A stretch of 64,000 nt of DNA from Anaerohalosphaera lusitana (GTDB taxonomy: Bacteria; Planctomycetota; Phycisphaerae; Sedimentisphaerales; Anaerohalosphaeraceae). Below are positions 4,287 to 54,079 of the stretch, piece after piece. The stretch spans positions 124,001-188,000 of the forward strand of contig NZ_CP019791.1 in the NCBI RefSeq assembly GCF_002007645.1, given 5' to 3'. The notes beneath the pieces were generated by a model, which worked only from the letters and a program-made list of their open reading frames with translations, was not told the DNA's origin and did not search any database. A program made the position numbers and the translations under genes. The stretch's first letter is position 1. Each line of letters opens with the position of its first letter.

Positions 4287-5021
4287 TCATTGACCACCTA
4301 ACGGCCAGGCCGAACGGTCTATTTCATAGTAACAATCCTCATCAGGAAGATATCTGAAGATTTCACCGTCATTGCGATACAGCAGCAGGTAATCATCCTT
4401 CCACCCTTCGATCATGCTAACGTTTGCCAGAAGAGGCTTCTGAGCATTTGGGTTTTCCTCATCGTATGGGCTAAAAACAAATACGAACACATCCCCAGGC
4501 TGACTACTCAACTTGGTAAGTTCTATTGCATCATTGAACGTGCAACGCTCCAAATTGCTTGGCCATATTTCTTCTGCTTCGGCATATTTCACAAAAGCTG
4601 CGACCCATTGCTCATTAGGCAGCCCGGCCTGCTCAGGCCTTTCACAGAACACCTCTACTGCCCGCCCAAGTTTTTCGGTCATGAGATATCCACTTGTGAC
4701 GTCATAGGTCATCCTAAAGGATCGAGAAACCAAAATAGGAACTTGAAGCACTATAAAGGCAGTGACAATGAAATATACAACTGCCATACCAAAATGCTTT
4801 CGAACGGCACTAAATAAAAACAGCAGGAGCATACCTGCCGGAACCAGCACGATAAAGATTCTGGCAAAATACAATGCCCGTTCCACCGCATGATTGTATA
4901 TACCTTGATCAAGACTCGATCTTGCATAACTAAACAGCAGTACAAGCACGAGAACAAAGCACACGATTACCGAAACACCTGCTATATCTATTCGCCATTT
5001 CTTCGACACAATTACCTCCAT
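4287..5021 (-). CDS. Hypothetical membrane protein, three N-terminal helices
   Basis: I do not recognise this 244-aa protein. It has three hydrophobic segments (about residues 12-32, 50-70 and 78-98) followed by a soluble domain of about 145 aa rich in acidic and aromatic residues, with no catalytic motif I can name. It is convergent with the ATPase gene, 123 bp away, and shares its lower GC. Both lie between the 24-bp direct repeats at 2632 and 5278, so they may have arrived together. The start is the most upstream ATG; a start a few codons later is possible. Confidence 0.7.
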   Translation of the reverse strand: MEVIVSKKWRIDIAGVSVIVCFVLVLVLLFSYARSSLDQGIYNHAVERALYFARIFIVLVPAGMLLLFLFSAVRKHFGMAVVYFIVTAFIVLQVPILVSRSFRMTYDVTSGYLMTEKLGRAVEVFCERPEQAGLPNEQWVAAFVKYAEAEEIWPSNLERCTFNDAIELTKLSSQPGDVFVFVFSPYDEENPNAQKPLLANVSMIEGWKDDYLLLYRNDGEIFRYLPDEDCYYEIDRSAWPLGGQ

Positions 5022-5333: not shown

Positions 5334-6671
5334 CTACTTCTTCCTTATCATCTCAGGCTCATCAGGCATCGAGTCCATAACCTTTTGCAGTTTCAGACGA
5401 ACGGCCCTGGTTTCTTCAGTATCGCTACTTTCAAGAACAGGATGCTTCTCGAGCACGTCTTTCTCTACATCGTAAAGTCTGCCGTCGCCATAAAGCTTAA
5501 AGCGTTTGTCACGAGCAAATCGGGTCTCCGGTTTCCACCCTTTAATGGGCCATGGATAGTAATACATGAAAATAGCTTCACGCGGATTGGCTTTCCCTCC
5601 CGTCAATCGAGGTAAAAAACTGCAGCCATCGATTTTTACATCTGAAGGCATTGACGCACCGGCAAGCCCAGCAACCGTTGGGAAGAAATCACTGAAATCA
5701 ACAAGGTCATCGCAGACCTGCGAACCGGTTTCCCCAAGAGTGCTGGAAATAAACGGAACCCGCGTCCCGTAATCTGTCGTCTTGCCCTTACCGCCCCTGA
5801 TCGTTTGCGAACCAAGCTTAGACTCAATGCTCCTATTGGTACCGTTGTCTCCAACGAACATTACCACAGTATCTTTCTCCAGCCCCTCATCCTTTACCGT
5901 ATTGATAATTCTGCCGACGAGTTTGTCCATATAGGTGACCATGTCCGCAAAATTCTTCTGCTTATCACTGCTTTCGGGGTTCTCACTGTCGGGTGTCACA
6001 GGGAATGGATTGTGCACAAGTATCATTGGGTAGTAGGCAAAAAACGGCTTCTCACCAGCATTTTTTATGAAATCACATATGTGATCACAGCACACGTCAG
6101 GACCATAAACATCTTTAGGGAACTGTCTGTTGGCCCCGTCGATATGAAGCAGAGGCCCCCAGTACCTCCCGCCCAGCTTGTCTACCTGCCACAGACAGTG
6201 CGTATCAAAGCCGGCATCTTCTGGCAGCGTACCTTTTCCTCTTGTCTCTTCAGAGTAATGCTCGGCCCCATAGAGCTGCCATTTGCCCGCCACACACGTT
6301 TTGTAGCCAGCGGACTTCAACAAGTGTGCAAAAGTTTCCTGGGATCCGTCAAGCAGACTGAAACCCACATAATTGCGAATATTTGACTTCCCAGTCATCA
6401 GTTTCACGCGGCTGGGAGTGCACAGAGGCTGAGAATAGCAGTGAGTAAAACGTATCCCATTCGCTGCAAGCCGATCGATATTTGGCGTATCGTACATCTC
6501 ACTGCCGTAACATCCAAAACACTCAAAACCGATGTCATCTGCCATGATCAGAACAATATTTTTCCGCTTACTCTCCGCTGCGGAAGCAAATCGCGGCAAA
6601 CATGTTGACGCCGTAATAATAGATGCAGACTTCAAAAACTCTCGACGACTGAGACCTGCCATATTTTTCAT
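5334..6671 (-). CDS. Tat-exported sulfatase (arylsulfatase family)
   Basis: The 445-aa protein begins with a twin-arginine leader (SRREFLK, residues 8-14, then a hydrophobic stretch to Ala31). Metal-binding Asp45-Asp46 lie in LIMADDIGF, and the sulfatase signature CTPSR has Cys84 as the residue converted to formylglycine. It hydrolyses sulfate esters, presumably on marine polysaccharides, outside the cytoplasm. No formylglycine-generating enzyme is visible in the window. The ATG at 6662 is an alternative start and has better spacing from GGAAG; the outer ATG at 6671 is given. A second sulfatase is at 44576. Confidence 0.93.
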   Translation of the reverse strand: MKNMAGLSRREFLKSASIITASTCLPRFASAAESKRKNIVLIMADDIGFECFGCYGSEMYDTPNIDRLAANGIRFTHCYSQPLCTPSRVKLMTGKSNIRNYVGFSLLDGSQETFAHLLKSAGYKTCVAGKWQLYGAEHYSEETRGKGTLPEDAGFDTHCLWQVDKLGGRYWGPLLHIDGANRQFPKDVYGPDVCCDHICDFIKNAGEKPFFAYYPMILVHNPFPVTPDSENPESSDKQKNFADMVTYMDKLVGRIINTVKDEGLEKDTVVMFVGDNGTNRSIESKLGSQTIRGGKGKTTDYGTRVPFISSTLGETGSQVCDDLVDFSDFFPTVAGLAGASMPSDVKIDGCSFLPRLTGGKANPREAIFMYYYPWPIKGWKPETRFARDKRFKLYGDGRLYDVEKDVLEKHPVLESSDTEETRAVRLKLQKVMDSMPDEPEMIRKK

Positions 6672-6946: not shown

Positions 6947-7621
6947 ATGCTCTGGCAATACGAATTTATCGTACGAGGCAAAAAAAGGTCCGACGAAGGC
7001 CTGCCCGACTTCAACCAGCCCGACCTCGGCTTCGAGCGAACCGTCCGCGCAGTCGCCAAAACAGAACGCGAAGCTCACAACATCATCAAGCCCCTCTTCA
7101 CCGACCGCAAGGAGATCCAGCCGCCCTGCACCTACACTCTCACCGCCCAGCAGGAAATAGCCGCCGCAGACGAATCGCACGAACGATACACCAACCAGGG
7201 CCCTTTCATCGCCTTCGCCCAGCCCCTGGAATTCACCGTCAACCAATCCGCAAGCTATCTTCCCATCGGCAGTTCGACCATAGCGATCAGCGTCCCAATA
7301 CTCATTTTCGGCACCCTGGCATATCTGCAAGATAAACTCCTCGCCCCGCTCATCCTCGGCACCGCCATCGCAGCAGCAGGCATATGGATAGTCGAGAAAA
7401 GCAGACCGGCCCTGAAGATCGCCGCCCTTCTCCACTGCGTCACAGTGGTAGTCGCCTTTGTCGCAATGGCCCTGTGGGGCGATCGCGGGTCCGACGAGAT
7501 GGCCGGCTTCGCCGCCCTGACCTGGCTCTGGGCAATCACCAATTCGATGTTCCTCATAAAATCACTAATATCGAGCCGACCCCCAGCCAAAACAAAAACC
7601 CAAAACCACCACGCAGCCTAG
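6947..7621 (+). CDS. Unrecognised membrane protein, paralog 1 of 4
   Basis: This 224-aa protein starts MLWQYEFIVRGK. It has a soluble N-terminal domain of about 105 aa followed by four hydrophobic helices (about 108-128, 131-148, 156-177 and 185-204). It shares landmarks with the next three genes: an initial YEF-x-VRGK strand, AVAKTEREA, and a Tyr-x3-GPF motif just before the membrane part. GGAGG (6932-6936) lies 10 nt upstream of the ATG. It is the first gene of a four-gene operon; the 38-nt gap to the next gene carries that gene's Shine-Dalgarno. I know no function for this family. A role in envelope sensing or transport is only a guess. Confidence 0.75.
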   Translation: MLWQYEFIVRGKKRSDEGLPDFNQPDLGFERTVRAVAKTEREAHNIIKPLFTDRKEIQPPCTYTLTAQQEIAAADESHERYTNQGPFIAFAQPLEFTVNQSASYLPIGSSTIAISVPILIFGTLAYLQDKLLAPLILGTAIAAAGIWIVEKSRPALKIAALLHCVTVVVAFVAMALWGDRGSDEMAGFAALTWLWAITNSMFLIKSLISSRPPAKTKTQNHHAA

Positions 7622-7659
7622 GCTCTCAAACAACAAACCATCATTCAGGAGAACAAAAC

Positions 7660-8376
7660 ATGCTATGGCAATACGATTTTCTGGTACGCGGCAAAACAGG
7701 TGGATGGTCCGAGCAGGCAGCCGACAAAGAGCAAACCCCCGAAGATACCGACAATACAGAGCCCGGCCAGGCGACAAACCCCGACGCATTCCCCGAAGCA
7801 GCACAGTACCAACGCCCCATGCTCCGGCTCGAGCACATCTACAGCGTCGTCGCAAAAAGCGAAAAACAAGCCGAGCACTGCCTCACCGACACATTCAAAT
7901 CGGCCAAAGGCGTTGACAGCATGCGCCTCATCCGTCGAACCGCCAAAAAACAGATACTCCCAGACGATGAGCGAGTTACGAAATACGAACAGATTGGCCC
8001 CTTCGTGATCCTCGACACGCCCATGGAGTTCACCAGCTACGACCAGTCATGTCGCGGCTGCGGCATCTCCGCCACCATCCTCGGCATGGCAGCGTGCGTA
8101 CTCGCCCTGATCATATACATCGAAGAAGCACTCTGGCTGCCCTGGCTCCTCGCGATCCCCGTAACAATCTCCGGCATCTGGATGATCGACGGCAGCCGCA
8201 TAGGCCTCAAATGCGCCGCCGCCTCGCACGCAATACTCATAACCCTAACCGCCTTCGCAACCGTCGTCTTTCTTATCAAAGAAGGAGTACTGGCCTTGCT
8301 AGCCCTCCTGATAACAGTCTGGGCATCCATAAACCTTATCCTCATGCTAAGCACTCTCATGCAGAAACGCAGCTAA
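7660..8376 (+). CDS. Unrecognised membrane protein, paralog 2 of 4
   Basis: This 238-aa protein starts MLWQYDFLVRGK, almost the same as the preceding paralog. Residues about 13-48 are an acidic, Gln/Asn/Pro-rich insert absent from the others. The shared VVAKSEKQAE segment, ILPDDERxxxYxxxGPF segment and four C-terminal helices follow. The start at 7660 has CAGGAGA (7647-7653) upstream; longer in-frame readings overlap paralog 1 and lack a ribosome site. It is followed 12 nt later by paralog 3. Function unknown. Confidence 0.75.
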   Translation: MLWQYDFLVRGKTGGWSEQAADKEQTPEDTDNTEPGQATNPDAFPEAAQYQRPMLRLEHIYSVVAKSEKQAEHCLTDTFKSAKGVDSMRLIRRTAKKQILPDDERVTKYEQIGPFVILDTPMEFTSYDQSCRGCGISATILGMAACVLALIIYIEEALWLPWLLAIPVTISGIWMIDGSRIGLKCAAASHAILITLTAFATVVFLIKEGVLALLALLITVWASINLILMLSTLMQKRS

Positions 8377-8388
8377 AGGCAGAACCGA

Positions 8389-9084
8389 ATGCATACCAAC
8401 ACCAACAACGAAAAACCAAACGACATCCGCCTGCACGAAATGTCCACCGCCGGCCAAGACAAAGCAGGCCGCGTCTTCAAACACAAAATCTGTGTCGTCG
8501 CAACCCGCTGGGATGAGGTGAACGCCCTCGCAGAAGACATGTACAAGCCCATCGGTGCAGTTGAATGGCGATGCACGAACACCAGCAGACTCCCAGCAAC
8601 CGATGAACAAAAACGCAAATACAACTCCGAAGGACCATACTGCGCTCACAGCGAACCCATCCACCAGAACCTCGGCTACGAAAAGGACTACCACCGCGCG
8701 GGCTGGGCCATCATAGGATTGGGCATAATCGCGGCATTGGGGTCAAAACCGGCCCTCTGCGGCGGAATAATCATACTGGTCATACTGGTCTCGGCAGGCC
8801 TTATAATATCAAATGATCGCAACCTGCTCTTTGCAAAGGTCATGCTGGCCTTTTTCAGCCTCTGTACAGCAGCATCCATCCTCGCCGTGATCGATGATCT
8901 GCTCGACCGCGATCCCGCAACCATATCCTGGCAAACAATTACCACGGAAGAAAATGTCTTTCTCACCTTCTTACTGGCCTGGCTCCTGATCACAGTCACC
9001 CTGCTCACAAGACTCATCTGGCGAGCACACCGCTGCAAAACGAAAAGCTCATCCAGCAAAAACGCTCCAGGAGCACAACCATGA
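8389..9084 (+). CDS. Unrecognised membrane protein, paralog 3 of 4
   Basis: This 231-aa protein is more divergent at the N-terminus (MHTNTNNEKPND) but keeps the family pattern: an opening strand ending AGQDKAGRV, then VVATRWDEV, then LPATDEQKRKYNSEGPY just before the first helix. Its four hydrophobic segments lie at about 104-122, 124-140, 147-167 and 190-210. It ends with a basic tail. Its stop overlaps the start of paralog 4 by 4 nt (ATGA), which indicates translational coupling. No function is recognised. Confidence 0.72.
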   Translation: MHTNTNNEKPNDIRLHEMSTAGQDKAGRVFKHKICVVATRWDEVNALAEDMYKPIGAVEWRCTNTSRLPATDEQKRKYNSEGPYCAHSEPIHQNLGYEKDYHRAGWAIIGLGIIAALGSKPALCGGIIILVILVSAGLIISNDRNLLFAKVMLAFFSLCTAASILAVIDDLLDRDPATISWQTITTEENVFLTFLLAWLLITVTLLTRLIWRAHRCKTKSSSSKNAPGAQP

Positions 9085-9749
9085 CAGCAAACACACAACA
9101 CCAAACCCAACACCCAAACGCAGAACGCTACGATTTCAAAGTAATAGGCCAGGACCAAACCGGCCGAATAATTGATCATTATTTTCAGATCGTCGCGTCA
9201 AAAGAATCACAGGCCGAAAAACACCTGCAATCGATATTCAAAAACAACTCGGGTATAAAAAAATGGACGGTCCTCAAGAAAAGAGTCCTGCCAACCACAG
9301 CCGAACAGAAGCGGACCTATGAAAACGAAGGCACCTTCTGTTTAACAGGCGACCAAATTCAATATCGACCTGGAAATGTAAGAGACTACAAACTCGCAGG
9401 CAGCGCTATAATTGGCTTTGGAGCATTCTTGGCTATTATTTCACTCGGTGCTGGCATCATCCATTTTTTGATTCTTGGGTCGATCGGCATATATCTGATG
9501 CGAAGCTTCAGCCTCGGTGCTGCACAACTATTGCTGGTTTTCTGCGTCTTGCCTTTAATCATAGGTACGATCCAAGTCATCAATCACATATTAAAGCACG
9601 GCTGGGAGCTTTCCCAATCTCTTAAACAACCACATATTCTAATACTGAACACCGCATTCGTCTTATTCATAATTGTGATCACCATCCTGCTCATCAGGCT
9701 GCTCTGCAAAGCTCACTACGGTAAAAATGAAGCAACAAAAATAGCATGA
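9081..9749 (+). CDS. Unrecognised membrane protein, paralog 4 of 4
   Basis: This 222-aa protein has YDFKVIGQDQTGR (family opening), IVASKESQAEKHL and LPTTAEQKRTYENEGTF, then four hydrophobic segments to about residue 210. It is closest to paralog 3 in the N-terminal domain and closes the operon. The third positions of its codons are less C-rich than in paralogs 1 and 2, so it may be under weaker codon selection or be a more recent arrival. Function unknown. Confidence 0.72.
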   Translation: MTANTQHQTQHPNAERYDFKVIGQDQTGRIIDHYFQIVASKESQAEKHLQSIFKNNSGIKKWTVLKKRVLPTTAEQKRTYENEGTFCLTGDQIQYRPGNVRDYKLAGSAIIGFGAFLAIISLGAGIIHFLILGSIGIYLMRSFSLGAAQLLLVFCVLPLIIGTIQVINHILKHGWELSQSLKQPHILILNTAFVLFIIVITILLIRLLCKAHYGKNEATKIA

Positions 9750-9829: not shown

Positions 9830-12800
9830 TCATTCATGCCAGTCCATACGCTCCAGCCACGCCGATGCGAATATCGCCAGGTCGGCCATATCCACAATCC
9901 CGTCCCTGTTGAAGTCCTGGCTCATTGCCCATTCATTCATGCTCGCATAATACATCCCGCCGTACGCACCCATATTGATCCTGCCGCCGTTCGGCATCCT
10001 TTCATCTGAAGGATTTGCCGTCGGATCACCCGCATCAATGCATGGACTGGTAACGTCATCCAGCACCCACTTCTCGACAGCAGGGTCATACCTGCCCCGC
10101 TCGGATCGCAGATGATAGTCCTGACCTGCCAGATCGACGAAGGCGGGCTCATCCGTGATATTTGTCTCGCCCGGCGAACCCCTTTCAATACAACTGTAGC
10201 GCACCTCGCCGCCGCCGTAAATGTCCGCAATACTGTTGCCCCAACTGATGCAGTTCTCGATCAGCGGATTGCCCGCCTGCCAGATGCTCAGCCCGTACCC
10301 ATTGCGAACAAGTGTGCAGTTACGGATCGTAGGCGAGCCCGTCCCGCAGAAGATCCCGTTCATCGATCCGCTGACAATGAAATTCTCGAGCACGCTGTCT
10401 CTGCCCTCATAACCATCAAACGTCGCACAAGTCAACGCACGTGAAGTGCTCGAAGCTGCCGTAACCGATTCGTCAACCGGCGCCAGCGCCCCGCCGAACA
10501 GCTCCGCCGGCATCCCGCTGGATTTGACATGGATCGCCTTGCCCAGAAAATCGATCGACTCCTCGTAAACCATACCCCCGGCAACCGAAACAGTATCCCC
10601 GTCCCAGGCCTCCTCGATCGCCCGCTGAATCGTAGCAAAAGGCTCATCCTCACTGATCCCATACCCGGCATCATCACCAACCTGCCCATCGACATAATAA
10701 GTCATCTCCGGGTGCACGATTTCGATGGTTTTTACCGTTGATGCTGACTGTCCGTTTTTAGTATATTTCGCCGCCAGCTTTGTGACCCCGACCTGATCGA
10801 AAGTTGTGATCTTAGCCGGCGGATCCATAATAGCAAGACCCTCAGGCATATTGGGGTCCATGATCCAATCAACTTCTTCGGTCACATCGAATTCATGTCC
10901 CCCTTCATAAACTGCCACAGCCTGGTAACTTTCCGTCGAATAACAATTGATTTCTTCGGACCCACGAATCTCCAAACCAAGCAGTTGCAAAGTCTTACTG
11001 CTCGGTGCCGATATGGCAGTCAGATAATTTTCATGCGATATGTAAAGTCGCTCGTCGCTAAGTGCCATGTGGCCCACAAAAGGATAAGTCCGAACTGTTT
11101 CCAAAGTGTAAGGCGAAATTACATGCGTTTGCGTCGATGTCTTTGCAAAAAGGTGCGAATCTGTGGCAATAATTTCACCGATAAAGTCATCTTCAACGCT
11201 GTATTCCCAAAGTAGCTCACCATTGATCTCGTCCCGGGCTTCGATCACACCGCCGTTTATTACATACAGAATACCGTTCGCAACTGAAGGCTGGTACCTA
11301 TAGTCTCCTTCAAGAACGTAGCGAATAGATCTGGTTTGCAGATCAAAACAAACTATCCGACTCACGGTATCGGAAATGAAACGATCCAAACCAAAGACAT
11401 TGCCATCTCCTCCAAGCACAGGGGCACAGTACATTTCTCTGGCATATGAGAAAAAATCGGGATCCTTAATTCTGTACGCTAATAAACCCGACTCCCGATC
11501 TAATACATATAAACCTGCTTCATAGCTGGGAGTGTCACCCAGATATGCGTAAACAAAGCTGCCATCAACTGCCGGCGTCCATTGATCATACATCGGCAGT
11601 TCTGCAAACCATTGTCGTTCCCCAGTCGTCGCATCAAAGCTAATGCATCCACCGTAAGTTCCGCCGTTTAAATAAACATATCCGTCATATGGAGTCGGCG
11701 CATAATAGTTTTGCCATTGTGCTCCATGAGGGCTCTTAAAAATGTTTTCACCGCTCTTTGCATCATAAGCCACTAGCCACGTATCTGAAGAGCTGTTGCC
11801 TATCTGTTCATATACGATACCGTTGGCATAGCTTGGAAAAGACCCCTGGTTCTGACTGAAAAACTCGGACCATAAAACAGCCCCTGTAGTTCCATCTACA
11901 ATATCGAGGCGTTCTCCCTGACGGGAAGTATATACCCGGCCATCAGCAGCAGTTATCCTGTTTATATAACCCCTTGTACCTATCCTGGTGGTCCAAAGCT
12001 CCTGCATGGATTGAACATCTATCGTTACCGGCAAATAACTATTGTGTTTGGGATTTGCCTGATACATTGGCCAACTCGTATTTGTCGGACCTTCATCTTT
12101 GGGAACACACGTAACACTCAGTTCCCCTGTGCGATTAGCTTCTCCGGCACAATAGCTTGCTGAGATTGTGGTCTCAACTGTTGTATCGAGAGGATAGGTC
12201 GCAAGCATATCGGGCTTATTAAATCCTCCCACACCACTATCTGAACAACTCCACTGAGCCTTGCCTGAGATCGGACTGATCGCATTATTAGCATATATCG
12301 CAAAAGGTCTGTACTCTATACAACTGTCTTCAGGCACAACAGCAGGCCCGATTATTCTCACTCCGTCCAAAGCCGGATACTCGATCACATCATCACAATC
12401 TACTTCAATATTGCTAACCTTGTATACAAAATTGCTGTCAAAAAGATCAGCGGTGAACTTCTCACCATACAACACCGTAAAATCGAGACTTATAGGTATT
12501 CTGGAACCCTTCGGCGCAGAGAGATAATGAAACCTGTTGCCCGAATAGTTGTTTACATTATCATCATATACAAAAAGCTCACCGCTCAGAGTACCCGTGG
12601 TCGACCCCTCCGTCGCAACAAGTTTCATAGGGCCTGCAAAATGCAACGAAAAACCGACAATCTGATGCTCTTCCGAAAAAACCGAGATGCTGTAAAAATG
12701 TCCCGTAGACCTCATGTGATATGTGATGGTCGGACCGTCAACATCGACACTATCAAAAAAGACACGATTCAATATGCTGTTGCCCGAAGTTCTTTCGATT

Positions 12801-13087
12801 TCAGATCCGTTGCTAAGAACAAACTTATCTACATCTTCCGCTATACGAAACGCATAACCAGAACGGTAGTTCTGCGTGCTGGTTGTTGTATCCATGCAAA
12901 TCTTGTCAATTGTGTAAGGACTGCACTCAAAATAGCCCTCCAGAAGCGAAGCACCTTCTCCGGTAGGTTCTGCAAACACCTGATCGCCACTGTAATCAGT
13001 TTGCGACTCGGCCGACTCTGCAGCCAAAACACCGCCCCATGAAACACATACAAAAACCATCACAGCAAATAACACTCTGACTCTCAT
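9830..13087 (-). CDS. Large secreted propeller/beta-helix protein with dockerin-like C-terminus
   Basis: The 1085-aa protein has a Sec signal peptide (MRVRVLFAVMVFVCVSWGG, cleavage near AAES). A region at about 345-700 has repeated WxxxxG- and VYxxxxxxxxxxLD-like blades typical of PQQ/BamB-type beta-propellers, with two-residue contexts such as GxTGAVLW and AxDAKSGE. A DUF1565/right-handed beta-helix region follows at about 830-990 (YYVDGQVGDDAGYG, DEPFATIQRAIEEA, IRNCTLVRNG). The final 30 residues contain DFNRDGIVDMADL, a calcium-binding dockerin-like repeat. Family knowledge suggests surface or extracellular display with binding of polysaccharide or protein; no enzyme site is evident. The ATG at 13087 is chosen because AAAGGG lies about 9 nt upstream; a TTG seven codons earlier is the alternative. 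Confidence 0.82.
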   Translation of the reverse strand: MRVRVLFAVMVFVCVSWGGVLAAESAESQTDYSGDQVFAEPTGEGASLLEGYFECSPYTIDKICMDTTTSTQNYRSGYAFRIAEDVDKFVLSNGSEIERTSGNSILNRVFFDSVDVDGPTITYHMRSTGHFYSISVFSEEHQIVGFSLHFAGPMKLVATEGSTTGTLSGELFVYDDNVNNYSGNRFHYLSAPKGSRIPISLDFTVLYGEKFTADLFDSNFVYKVSNIEVDCDDVIEYPALDGVRIIGPAVVPEDSCIEYRPFAIYANNAISPISGKAQWSCSDSGVGGFNKPDMLATYPLDTTVETTISASYCAGEANRTGELSVTCVPKDEGPTNTSWPMYQANPKHNSYLPVTIDVQSMQELWTTRIGTRGYINRITAADGRVYTSRQGERLDIVDGTTGAVLWSEFFSQNQGSFPSYANGIVYEQIGNSSSDTWLVAYDAKSGENIFKSPHGAQWQNYYAPTPYDGYVYLNGGTYGGCISFDATTGERQWFAELPMYDQWTPAVDGSFVYAYLGDTPSYEAGLYVLDRESGLLAYRIKDPDFFSYAREMYCAPVLGGDGNVFGLDRFISDTVSRIVCFDLQTRSIRYVLEGDYRYQPSVANGILYVINGGVIEARDEINGELLWEYSVEDDFIGEIIATDSHLFAKTSTQTHVISPYTLETVRTYPFVGHMALSDERLYISHENYLTAISAPSSKTLQLLGLEIRGSEEINCYSTESYQAVAVYEGGHEFDVTEEVDWIMDPNMPEGLAIMDPPAKITTFDQVGVTKLAAKYTKNGQSASTVKTIEIVHPEMTYYVDGQVGDDAGYGISEDEPFATIQRAIEEAWDGDTVSVAGGMVYEESIDFLGKAIHVKSSGMPAELFGGALAPVDESVTAASSTSRALTCATFDGYEGRDSVLENFIVSGSMNGIFCGTGSPTIRNCTLVRNGYGLSIWQAGNPLIENCISWGNSIADIYGGGEVRYSCIERGSPGETNITDEPAFVDLAGQDYHLRSERGRYDPAVEKWVLDDVTSPCIDAGDPTANPSDERMPNGGRINMGAYGGMYYASMNEWAMSQDFNRDGIVDMADLAIFASAWLERMDWHE

Positions 13088-13347
13088 ACTCCACACCCTT
13101 TCAACCAAGAATAGATAACGCCAACTTCATCCGCACAAGAATTCGGACAATTAACGCTACACTTATACAGCAAAAACAAACATCATCGCAACACAAAAAA
13201 CATAAACCAGCCCACAAAAATCTGTTTTCATAAAAATAACGACCTAGGCAATTATAAACTCACAATACTTGCAAAATCCGCCCCGCATGTTATGCTCACC
13301 CGCATCGTTACTAATTAGAAACTGTCCTTTCACACACAACCCACAAC

Positions 13348-17361: not shown

Positions 17362-17396
17362 ATAGGACAAGGGGGTATTAGTAAGGAGAGATGGCA

Positions 17397-18731
17397 ATGA
17401 CTGATATCAAGAGGTTCATTGCAGGAATGCCCTTGCATTATAAGCTTTTTTGCGCCTACACCATGATCTTTGCCTCCATCTGGCTTGTAAGCACAGCCTT
17501 AGTCTACGCAATGGCTTATAGAACGATCTCCGCAAGGGTGGACAGCGAACTGTCAAACACAACCACCGCGCTTCGAAACCTGGTTGAAACATGTGCCTCG
17601 ACCGCCATAAAGAACACCTTAAAGGCAAGTGCCCAACGCAACCGCGAGATGATTAGCAGCATCTACGCAAAGGCTCTCAAGGGAGAGATCTCCATGGAGC
17701 AGGCAAAAGCTCAATGCACCGAAATATTGCTCTCCCAGAAGATAGGCTCAACTGGGTATCTCTATTGCGTGGACAGCAAAGGCATCGTCCAGGTGCATCC
17801 GTTCCCCGGCGTTCTAGGCCGAGATGTCTCAGAATACAATTTCATAAAGCAGCAGATCAAGAAGAAACAGGGTTACATCGAATATGACTGGAGGAACCCT
17901 GGTGATCCCGCGGCACGCCCAAAGGCTCTCTATATGACATACTTTGAACCGTGGGACTGGATTATTTCAGCATCCTCATACCGAAGTGAGTTCCTCGATC
18001 TGGTCAATGTCGATGATTTTCGAGACACAGTTCTCGCACTCAATTTTGGCAAGAGCGGCTACTCATTTGTGGTCGATGTAGACGGCAACATGATAATTCA
18101 CCCTAAGACCAAAGGAAACTTCTCCGACACCGACTCAATAAAGACCATCCTCCGCGAAAAAGAAGGCACAATGCGATATAAATGGCAAAACCCTGACGAG
18201 CACCGGCCACGTGAAAAAATTGTCTGCTTTATGCCCATACCTGAATATGGCTGGTTTGTCGGCTCAAGCGGATATGTGGACGAAATGTACGCCCCCATTA
18301 GCAGAATACGAAACGTTCTGGTCATCACCTTTATAACCGGGGTCGCCGCCATAATTGCATTGTCCTTGTGGCTCAGCTCGATCATTACAAAACCTCTCAG
18401 CAGCCTTACGGACCGTGTTGTCAAGGCATGTGGCGAAGAAAAACCCGAATGTGACCTCGAACAACGTAACGAAATACGAAAACTAACGGACTGCTTCAAC
18501 TGTTTTGTCGTTAAGATAGAGGATTATCAATCTAAACTAAAAGAATCACTGGCCCAAAAAGAGGAAGCGATGCATCAACTTTCTATAACCAACGAGGAAC
18601 TGGAAGAGATTGTGTTTGCCAGCTCACACGACCTGCGATCCCCGCTTGTCAGCCTGGCAGGGTTCAGCCATGAGCTCGAAGTTTCCTGCGGAAAGTTGCA
18701 GGAAATGATAAGTAATACGCATTGCGATTAA
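17397..18731 (+). pseudogene. Sensor histidine kinase, 5' part (interrupted by IS630-type element)
   Basis: The 5' half encodes one N-terminal helix (about residues 17-40), two Cache-type sensor repeats (GSTGYLYCVDSKGIVQVHP and GKSGYSFVVDVDGNMIIHP), a second helix (about 305-325), a HAMP-like linker with coiled coil, and the start of the HisKA dimerisation domain with the phospho-acceptor His in ASSHDLRSPL. After Ile-Ser (18708-18713) the reading runs into the insertion element and stops. The product would sense an extracellular ligand but could not bind ATP. AAGGAG (17383-17388) sits 8 nt before the ATG at 17397, favouring it over the ATG at 17391. The 3' half resumes at 19875. Confidence 0.88.
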
Positions 18732-19300
18732 TTCTCATGCTTAGTCCATTCAGTATTGCATATTGAGCAGAACATTTCTGAGGTTATATTGTTCCATGCA
18801 ACTGTTCCTGCGTTGAATATTTCCTCATAATTTTTGTAAATGCGGTTGCTCAAGTAGTGACTCTTCATATAGGCCCAAAGACGTTCTATCGGATTCAATT
18901 CCGGACTGTATGCAGGCAGGTGAAGCAGGCTGATATTCTTCGGCACAACCAACTGTTTAGCGATATGCCAACCAGCCTGATCAAGAACCAGAACCACATG
19001 TACATCTTTGCCTGCCTCCTCGCTTATAAATCTCAGGTGGTGATTCATATAATCAGTGTTAACAGTCGGAGTAATCACAGCCGACGATTTGCCATTGACA
19101 GGATTGACAGCTCCAAAAATATATACCCAATCATACTCGGTCTGCTTTACTGCTGTAGGCCTGGATCCTTTTGGAGCCCAAACATTGGTCAGTGTTCCTT
19201 GCTGGCCTATTCGCACTTCGTCCTGGAACCAGATCTCAATTTTCTTTTCGGGGTTTTCTGTTCGGACTTTTTGGACAAAAAGGGGGCTTGCTCCAACCAC
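18728..19300 (-). CDS. IS630-type transposase, C-terminal DDE part (orfB)
   Basis: The ORF encodes the DDE catalytic region: first Asp in WFQDEVRIGQ, second Asp in VLVLDQAGWH, and Glu in SPELNPIERLWAYMK. These are the hallmark spacings of IS630/Tc1-mariner transposases, which excise and insert the element at TA sites. It is read in the -1 frame relative to the upstream ORF (19207-19776) and overlaps it by 94 nt. The nominal first codon has no ribosome-binding site, so translation most likely comes from frameshifting rather than separate initiation. Confidence 0.9.
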   Translation of the reverse strand: MVGASPLFVQKVRTENPEKKIEIWFQDEVRIGQQGTLTNVWAPKGSRPTAVKQTEYDWVYIFGAVNPVNGKSSAVITPTVNTDYMNHHLRFISEEAGKDVHVVLVLDQAGWHIAKQLVVPKNISLLHLPAYSPELNPIERLWAYMKSHYLSNRIYKNYEEIFNAGTVAWNNITSEMFCSICNTEWTKHEN

Positions 19301-19776
19301 TGCTGCATTTTTTCCGGATCGTTCTTTCGGTGCTTAGGCCTTGGTTTTAGACATGAAAGCCCCAATCTATGCATTAGATCATAGACGCCGAAGAGCGAAT
19401 ATTTTACGCCAAATTCTCTTTCAAGAATCCGTCTTATGTCTCTGCCGCGTAGCACACATACACCACCGTCTGAATCGGTTGGTCCATCTTGAATTCGCTT
19501 GATCAACTCAGGCTCTTTTTTGCGTGGCAGTTTTGTAGGCCTGCCGCTTTGACGTTTTGGTGCGATAGCCTCAATGCCGCCATCACGGTAGAAATAACAC
19601 CATCGCTGAACGAAGTTTTTGCTGCGATCAAGTTTTGTCATGATCGCTTTTGTTTGCCATCCCTCCAATGCCAGGGCTACCACCCGATATCGATCTCGCT
19701 GCTTTGCATTGGTTTCAATCTGAGCTTTTTCTTTTAACTTTTGCAGGTCACCGTACTTGATCTCACTGATGTGCAT
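19207..19776 (-). CDS. IS630-type transposase, N-terminal DNA-binding part (orfA)
   Basis: This 189-aa ORF contains a helix-turn-helix region (RYRVVALALEGWQTKAIMTKL...NFVQRWCYFYRDGG) and a GRPTKLPRKK basic segment typical of the paired-type DNA-binding domain that recognises IS630 ends. AAGGA lies about 8 nt before the ATG at 19776. The family's usual single protein of about 340 aa would result from a -1 shift near 19267-19273. Without a shift the product ends in a basic tail (KRKLRSGSRTKCE). Confidence 0.88.
   Translation of the reverse strand: MHISEIKYGDLQKLKEKAQIETNAKQRDRYRVVALALEGWQTKAIMTKLDRSKNFVQRWCYFYRDGGIEAIAPKRQSGRPTKLPRKKEPELIKRIQDGPTDSDGGVCVLRGRDIRRILEREFGVKYSLFGVYDLMHRLGLSCLKPRPKHRKNDPEKMQQWLEQAPFLSKKSEQKTPKRKLRSGSRTKCE
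19267..19273 (-). promoter_or_regulatory. Probable -1 programmed frameshift site (C AAA AAG)
   Basis: On the minus strand the heptamer C-AAA-AAG lies in the orfA frame exactly inside the overlap with the -1 frame of orfB. Slippage here gives ...APFLSKK-VRTENPEKK..., a continuous transposase. Confidence 0.65.
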
Positions 19777-19874: not shown

Positions 19875-20505
19875 GCTGTTGCACGATAAAGCTGCGGCCC
19901 AACAAGTCAACCGGCTCATCTCCGATGAAGTCGGGCAGGAGGTCTCGTTTATAACCGCCAGCGTCAAAAAGCTCGATTCACTGCAAAGAGGGCTTCTGGC
20001 ACTTTCACGATTGGGTAGAGTCGAACTGGATAAGGACCTGATCGACATGGACGAACTTGTCAAAAAAATATTCACCCTGCAGGAAGAACAGGTCCTGGCC
20101 GCAAAAGCAGAGATTGATATCGATCATTTGCCCAACTGCTGCGGCGACCAGCAGCTTATCAGCGAAGTCTTCTCAGCCCTGCTGGACAACGCTCTCAAGT
20201 ATCTCGATCCGCAGCGAAAAGGGCTAATACGCATCTCCGGACATGCGAGGGACGGCATGTGCAGATACTCCGTCAGGGATAACGGCATTGGAATATCGCC
20301 GGAGCATCAGAAAAAAATATTTGAAGTTTTTCACCGCCTCACTCCAAATGGCGACACGATGGGCAGAGGCCTGGGTTTGACCCTTGCTCGCCGAATAGTA
20401 CTGAGACACAAAGGTCATATCTGGGTGCAATCACAAGAAGGACAAGGCAGCACTTTCTGGGTCGAATTACCCGCAGCAGACACACAAAATAAAACCGCCC
20501 ACTAA
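19875..20505 (+). pseudogene. Sensor histidine kinase, 3' part (ATPase domain)
   Basis: The 3' half continues the kinase with the second HisKA helix (ASVKKLDSLQRGLLALSRLGRVEL) and the complete HATPase_c domain: N box LLDNALKYLD, G1 box DNGIGI, F region FEVFHRL and G2 box GRGLGLTLARRIV. Joined across the excised element, the ancestral protein would be about 649 aa. A TTG at 19879 could in principle start a soluble ATPase fragment lacking the acceptor His. No response-regulator gene adjoins it. Confidence 0.88.
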
Positions 20506-32468: not shown

Positions 32469-33242
32469 TCATGACCAGATGACCTTTACATAAACTGTGT
32501 TCGTTTCGTCATCAACCACAACTGTACCCCAGTTGTGGCCTGACTCATCCGGTTCTATTTCATAGCGTCTTCCTTTGACGCGCACCGTTGGCCGATACCA
32601 CCGCGGCATCCGGTGGAAAAGATAATACAACTCGTGACCCTCATATATCAGTTGACTTCTTTCACGGTCATTATCGGGCTGAGGCAGGAGCATGTGTTCC
32701 GCATCGAAATGTTCCACCGTTTCTTTCAATCCCGGGGAAGCTGAAAGCCAAGAATCAACTTCGTCTGCTGGTGCATTGAACATTAAGTACTCCTCGCCAG
32801 TGAAAAGCCCATCCCATCCATCTGCACGCAGATTGCGAGCGTTGGCAGGAAGTTCCGCCAGCCGACCCGCATGAAGCATTTTCGAAACATCAGCGAGCTG
32901 CAGTTTGCCAAGCGGCTTGGGTGCTTTGACATTCGATATCCTTACAGGGATTGCCTGATATGCAATCGAGCAAAGAGAAAATCCCGACAGTGCTGAGCCG
33001 CCGACCGCAAAAACAACCATTAACCATTGTCGACGGTGTATCGCGATCCAAATGACGGCGGTGCACATCAGAAAACCCACAGCAATAATCATCAAAGAGA
33101 TGTCAACCAATCCCAGTACGTATATGAATCCACCGACAAGTGCAAATATTATCCCGAAGACAACCAGCAAAACTTCGCCAATCGCGAAACGTGGCTGACC
33201 GCTTTGGGCGCTTTGGTTGGTTTTACCGGACTCGGAAATCAT
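32469..33242 (-). CDS. Hypothetical membrane protein (shares N-terminus with the 33403 gene)
   Basis: This 257-aa protein is not recognised. Residues 1-15 (MISESGKTNQSAQSG) are cytoplasmic and polar; three hydrophobic segments follow (about 22-45, 48-66 and 71-95), and a soluble domain of about 150 aa has acidic and aromatic residues (WDGLFTGEEYLMF, YEIEPDESGHNWG). Its first about 35 residues and its upstream DNA closely match those of the next gene (33403-34011), although the rest of the two proteins is unrelated. A role at the envelope is likely; nothing more can be said. Confidence 0.68.
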   Translation of the reverse strand: MISESGKTNQSAQSGQPRFAIGEVLLVVFGIIFALVGGFIYVLGLVDISLMIIAVGFLMCTAVIWIAIHRRQWLMVVFAVGGSALSGFSLCSIAYQAIPVRISNVKAPKPLGKLQLADVSKMLHAGRLAELPANARNLRADGWDGLFTGEEYLMFNAPADEVDSWLSASPGLKETVEHFDAEHMLLPQPDNDRERSQLIYEGHELYYLFHRMPRWYRPTVRVKGRRYEIEPDESGHNWGTVVVDDETNTVYVKVIWS

Positions 33243-33402: not shown

Positions 33403-34011
33403 TCACCACTGAAAGCCCTTTTTGACTTTATCCGGCTGACCAAACAACTCAATCGCTTCTTTGTGGTTAAGCGGAAAAACATATCGTTTTGTTTTGCCGG
33501 AGTTCCAAAGAACGGAGGGTTCCAGAAAACCGTCTTTCGTCCATAGCGCCCCGCAAGTAAGACCGAGTATCCGGCCGTCTTCTGAAACCTTGAAAGAAGC
33601 TCTTTCAGTGAACTTGAAGTTAGTAGTGTTTGGCGGCCAACCGTTTAATTCATTTGCGGGAATAGTTGTATCTGCATTTCTTTGCAAGTATTCTGCTGTG
33701 ACCTCTTTTAGTGATATGAGTTCCCCATTCAATTTTTCAATGTAGATTTCAGGAATGTCCGCCATTGCATACAAGGGTTCAGCAGCGTTTCCTATTTGTA
33801 GCTTGTGGTATTTAACCTTCTCATCGACGATTCCGCCCAATAGTTCGATGCACCCTTTCTCATAAGTCTGTCTATTGTCTTTAGGCTCGCAACCACAAAG
33901 CTGTAGAATGCCAGCGATCATGACAAAGATGACTAACACAATGCCGCCAATCGTGAAATTTGCCTGACTGCGCCGGGCGCTTTGGTTGGTTTTACCGGAT
34001 TCGGAACTCAT
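33403..34011 (-). CDS. Hypothetical membrane-anchored protein (shares N-terminus with the 32469 gene)
   Basis: This 202-aa protein opens MSSESGKTNQSARRSQ, nearly the same as the previous gene, followed by one hydrophobic helix (about 20-38) ending LQLCGCEPKDN. The soluble remainder of about 155 aa includes DIPEIYIEKLNGELISLKEV and may lie outside the membrane. No family is recognised. The leader plus upstream region (ATTGAAGGG...AACTGTC.ATGG) is duplicated at both genes, so the start codon at 34011 is supported by conservation at 33242. Confidence 0.68.
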   Translation of the reverse strand: MSSESGKTNQSARRSQANFTIGGIVLVIFVMIAGILQLCGCEPKDNRQTYEKGCIELLGGIVDEKVKYHKLQIGNAAEPLYAMADIPEIYIEKLNGELISLKEVTAEYLQRNADTTIPANELNGWPPNTTNFKFTERASFKVSEDGRILGLTCGALWTKDGFLEPSVLWNSGKTKRYVFPLNHKEAIELFGQPDKVKKGFQW

Positions 34012-53847: not shown

Positions 53848-53965
53848 TTAAGAGAATCCTTCGATTTTGAATTACGCTTGCAAAACCCAACTTCGCTCAT
53901 ATAATAACGCTCCATTGGGTTTTGGTCATTATACAGCCAAACTCGACCGTAAGCCAAGACAATCT

Positions 53966-54048
53966 GGCCGAGTGGCGGAAAGGCAGACGCTGGGGACTTA
54001 AAATCCCCTGCCCGCAAGGGCGTGTGGGTTCGAATCCCACCTCGGCTA
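53966..54048 (+). tRNA. tRNA-Leu (anticodon UAA)
   Basis: The 83-nt sequence folds as a class II tRNA. The acceptor stem is GGCCGAG (53966-53972) with CTCGGCT (54041-54047; G1-U72 wobble) and A54048 as discriminator. The anticodon loop CTTAAAA has TAA at 53999-54001; the extra arm and T-arm (GTGGG TTCGAAT CCCAC) follow. No 3' CCA is encoded, so it is added after transcription. It reads UUA (and UUG by wobble) and is a substrate type for MiaA (31371). Confidence 0.97.
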
Positions 54049-54079
54049 TCCTTATTTCTGTGTGAAAAACGGCTTATCT

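Follow-up and report, generated by a model that had tools for sequence, protein, structure and literature searches.

Four consecutive plus-strand genes, designated A–D and located in a window of 64,000 nucleotides of Anaerohalosphaera lusitana DNA, appear to constitute a lineage-restricted, locally duplicated family of inner-membrane proteins, probably expressed from one mRNA and perhaps assembled into a heteromeric complex of A–B and C–D pairs. This is the explanation that we favor, albeit tentatively; within it coding capacity, paralogy, pairing and the lack of matches to known families come from the sequence, fold and topology from prediction, and co-transcription, complex and function from inference. 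It is favored by the tight spacing of the genes on a single strand, an ATGA overlap, SD-like sites and host-like codon usage, as well as by the homology of the N-terminal domains in all pairs, the profile score, the split of the tree and the matching architectures of the AlphaFold models.

The four proteins, 222–238 aa long, begin with a soluble N-terminal domain followed by four predicted membrane helices. Gene A (6947–7621, +; 224 aa), whose ATG is preceded by GGAGG, encodes a predicted β-β-α-β domain (approximately residues 1–100) ahead of the helices; gene B (7660–8376, +; 238 aa; AGGAG upstream) has A as its nearest paralog (31% identity) and a longer linker joining the first two strands; gene C (8389–9084, +; 231 aa), closest to D (30% identity), has degenerate first-strand and VVA motifs; finally, gene D (9081–9749, +; 222 aa; AGGAG upstream) specifies an N-domain predicted as β-β-α-β-α, again followed by four membrane helices. 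A and B are separated by 38 nt and B and C by 12 nt, and C and D overlap by 4 nt (ATGA); the coordinates, strand, gaps and overlap given by an earlier, sequence-only reading proved exact upon re-examination. Since the flanking genes, encoding a sulfatase on the left (5334–6671) and a PQQ/β-helix protein on the right (9830–13108), are both on the minus strand, A–D form a self-contained run; these neighbors are uninformative, and the genomic context offers no clue to the function of the array.

A purine-rich stretch resembling a ribosome-binding site (SD-like) precedes the start of each of the four genes, and codon adaptation, referred to the clear genes of the window, is highest in the annotated frame in every case, albeit narrowly for D (0.53 vs 0.52); together, SD-like stretches and codon usage support A–D being real coding genes. 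GC3 is lower in each successive gene (A 0.71, B 0.68, C 0.62, D 0.48), so that the four genes may lack one common recent history. The promoter-like and terminator-like sites found at the array are within the numbers expected by chance and the operon call therefore depends solely on the spacing, from which transcription of A–D into one mRNA is probable. No Rfam family was matched between 5000 and 14500.

The kinship of the four proteins is clearest in the soluble domain. Smith–Waterman comparisons of the N-domains against shuffled sequences yielded z values of 23.6 for C–D, 20.6 for A–B, 13.0 for B–D, 9.4 for A–C, 5.1 for A–D and 3.7 for B–C, the score of this last and weakest pair being reached by one in 1000 shuffles; by these alignments the N-domains are homologous beyond chance in six of six pairs. 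Likewise, the profile–profile comparison of AB with CD gave an N-domain score of 40.1 as against a shuffle maximum of 16.7. In the tree A and B stand apart from C and D, with an ultrafast bootstrap of 100 and long branches, and this split, together with the strong homology inside the pairs, bears out the proposal of repeated duplication and divergence. Two or more rounds of tandem duplication may be envisaged, the first giving rise to a proto-AB and a proto-CD, the next to A/B and C/D. Three motifs had been said to be common to all four proteins: the Tyr-x3-Gly-[P/T]-[F/Y] step preceding the membrane region is found in each of them (RYTNQGPF, KYEQIGPF, KYNSEGPY and TYENEGTF), whereas protein C departs from the other two, its opening strand reading LHEMSTAGQ and its second step VVATRWDEV.

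The membrane regions behave differently. Their z values are 12.3 for A–B and 10.7 for C–D, the cross-pair comparisons being at the level of shuffles, and the AB versus CD profile–profile score (18.3) is matched by two of 100 shuffles. Thus, the paralogy of all four proteins holds for the N-domain, whereas in the membrane part it is detectable only within A/B and within C/D. Nevertheless, the C/D profile matches A over positions 33–161, a stretch extending into the first helices, so that divergence suffices to account for unlike membrane regions across the pairs and a replaced membrane part need not be invoked.

How the four proteins would work together, if they do, is a matter on which the same data can be read in two ways. 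In the explanation that we favor, A–D would be co-expressed, probably from the single mRNA, and the A–B and C–D pairs would assemble into a heteromeric membrane complex in which the common contact would be made by the cytoplasmic domains, and a separate role would be conferred on each pair by its diverged bundles. Nearly as likely, with the complex slightly ahead, is that A–D are functionally independent paralogs, produced by local expansion and acting alone or as homomers, each with its own ligand or partner. Such independence, which we consider a real if somewhat weaker contender, would fit the high divergence of the proteins (approximately 30% identity inside the pairs and 18–20% for A or D versus most members of the opposite pair) and the loss of any detectable sequence relation between the membrane regions across pairs; it sits less easily with the retention of a compact same-strand run in which C and D overlap. 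The net charges of the N-domains (A −3, B −6, C 0, D +4) would suit contacts between unlike subunits, a weak argument in favor of the complex.

AlphaFold models of D and A, built on one identical four-sequence alignment, display the same architecture, that is β-β-α-β, an extra short helix and strand and then four membrane helices; because the alignments consist of four sequences the models are only moderately confident (pLDDT 78.9 for D and 74.4 for A). Basic residues are located mainly at the C-terminal end and in the loop joining TM2 to TM3, acidic ones mainly in the remaining loops, a distribution suggesting that both termini are cytoplasmic. Each protein would present a cytoplasmic β-β-α-β domain of approximately 100 residues on a four-helix bundle. 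No catalytic, nucleotide-binding, metal-binding or ligand motif is evident by eye in any of the four.

The fold predicted for the soluble domain may have counterparts elsewhere. The N-domain model of D resembles the archaeal ribosomal protein LX (4v6u_Bl; VIA-align Z 7.3, rmsd 2.2, 67 of 77 residues), although a Z below 8 may reflect a common arrangement; eL20 chains rank first in the Foldseek search of the PDB with the D model, with weak E-values (0.04 and above), and the model also resembles the simple β-β-α-β fold of several small phage proteins in BFVD. These resemblances are what recommends the idea that the array is a divergent branch of a widespread, unrecognized family, overlooked since a profile built from four such diverged sequences is weak, an idea that we regard as improbable in view of the genome, viral, plasmid and phage searches described below. 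Membership in the LX/eL20 family (PF01775, Ribosomal_L18A) was rejected: the profile matches neither the four proteins nor any other in the whole genome, and hhalign against four archaeal LX sequences (their residues being those returned by a PDB search for which an approximate LX sequence served as the seed) gave 10.5, the level of shuffles (10.1 ± 2.1). Furthermore, LX is a soluble protein of archaeal and eukaryotic ribosomes, whereas A–D carry four membrane helices. A hetero-tetramer unique to one planctomycete lineage, whose LX-like cytoplasmic domains would tether an RNA- or ribosome-associated partner at the inner membrane, is a conjecture to which we attach very little credence.

The fold search with the A model returned a list filled by helical bundles. 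The modeled four-helix bundle resembles that of tetraspanins and of the MS4A proteins (CD20, Fc-epsilon-RI beta), with a Z of approximately 8–11 among many unrelated bundles, such matches being informative from approximately 13; these are eukaryotic families having no sequence in common with A–D, and the likeness of the modeled bundle is a generic resemblance only. A GYF_2-type N-terminal domain ahead of a small membrane region is a feature of some small planctomycete proteins, whose layout, a small soluble N-domain followed by a small membrane bundle, is like that of A–D; no Pfam GYF_2-type domain matched any of the four array proteins.

The earlier statement that no named family is recognizable has stood up to searches of Pfam, NCBIfam, PHROG and the PDB sequences, none of which gave a significant match over the soluble domain, and of the PADLOC-DB defense models, which gave none at E ≤ 1. 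The Pfam and NCBIfam rows obtained are far below the curated cut-offs, an example being exosortase Z over the membrane helices of B (20.8 against 475 bits), and DpnD/PcfM-like (PF14207) was matched neither by the four proteins nor by the array in a genome-wide search. Among the literature titles listed on Phycisphaerae membrane-protein paralogs and Anaerohalosphaera genomes none concerns such a family.

In the source genome the family consists of the four array members and no others. Profile searches of 59 relatives and of overlapping samples of 39 family, 161 order, 397 class and 392 phylum genomes identified no credible relative, the source genome being the sole representative of its genus; for the copy number of the array in other Phycisphaerae, which the sequence-only reading had proposed to examine, the outcome is 0 in every sampled relative. 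Pattern-seeded scans, less sensitive than profiles, revealed no relative in 84,980 species genomes or in viral contigs; the species-genome scans were seeded by protein D and by the A/B pair because the four-row profile lacks a sufficiently conserved stretch. A tblastn search of plasmids and phages was also negative.

Four weak matches were inspected individually (L004, L006, L011–L014, L020–L024 and L026 being left out) and rejected: L019 (G034) is by eye a YhaM-type OB-fold/HD protein, L029 (G620) is antisense to a DUF1501-like gene, L010 (G105) is a short, all-helix membrane protein and L035 (G101) is antisense to an MFS transporter. The remaining weak rows from full-length queries align mostly over membrane helices.

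The orphan status and tandem duplication of the array might also be expected of a defense or mobile-element cargo cluster, which would account for sporadic occurrence and fast divergence, and an IS630-like transposase (18728–19776, assigned by eye) lies approximately 9 kb away. We consider this origin very unlikely, given that the PADLOC, phage and plasmid searches were without a match, that the array is bordered by the sulfatase and PQQ/β-helix genes and that the window has a single tRNA, located at 53965–54051.

Although new to the libraries searched, the family is, as an orphan tandem expansion, of a common kind, lineage-restricted families of this type being common. Indeed, to call it an undescribed system, as the sequence-only reading did, is an overstatement: the search for relatives, informative neighbors and recognizable catalytic or ligand motifs yielded none. 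What the array clearly illustrates is a membrane protein family restricted to one lineage, expanded in place and missing from the libraries and relatives sampled, in which the soluble domain stays recognizable across the pairs and the membrane part has diverged past detection between them. As long as it has neither relatives nor a hint of function, the family is of limited wider importance, a situation that the structure of a complex or the finding of a phenotype would alter.

Elsewhere in the window, a Cache/HAMP-type histidine kinase gene appears by eye, from the translations, to be split into two plus-strand parts (17391–18731 and 19879–20505) by an IS630-like element on the minus strand, the transposase of which is represented by the overlapping ORFs 18728–19300 and 19207–19776. 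A further orphan, encoded at 4287–5021 (−), is also a membrane protein and gave no match in Pfam. Neither this protein nor those of two adjacent minus-strand orphans (32469–33242 and 33403–34011) bear any clear kinship to the array, the best z being 2.9 (C versus 32469). The two adjacent orphans, which gave no match in the Pfam search, are alike in their first ~22 residues (M-SESGKTNQSA, then F-IG) and differ in the rest.
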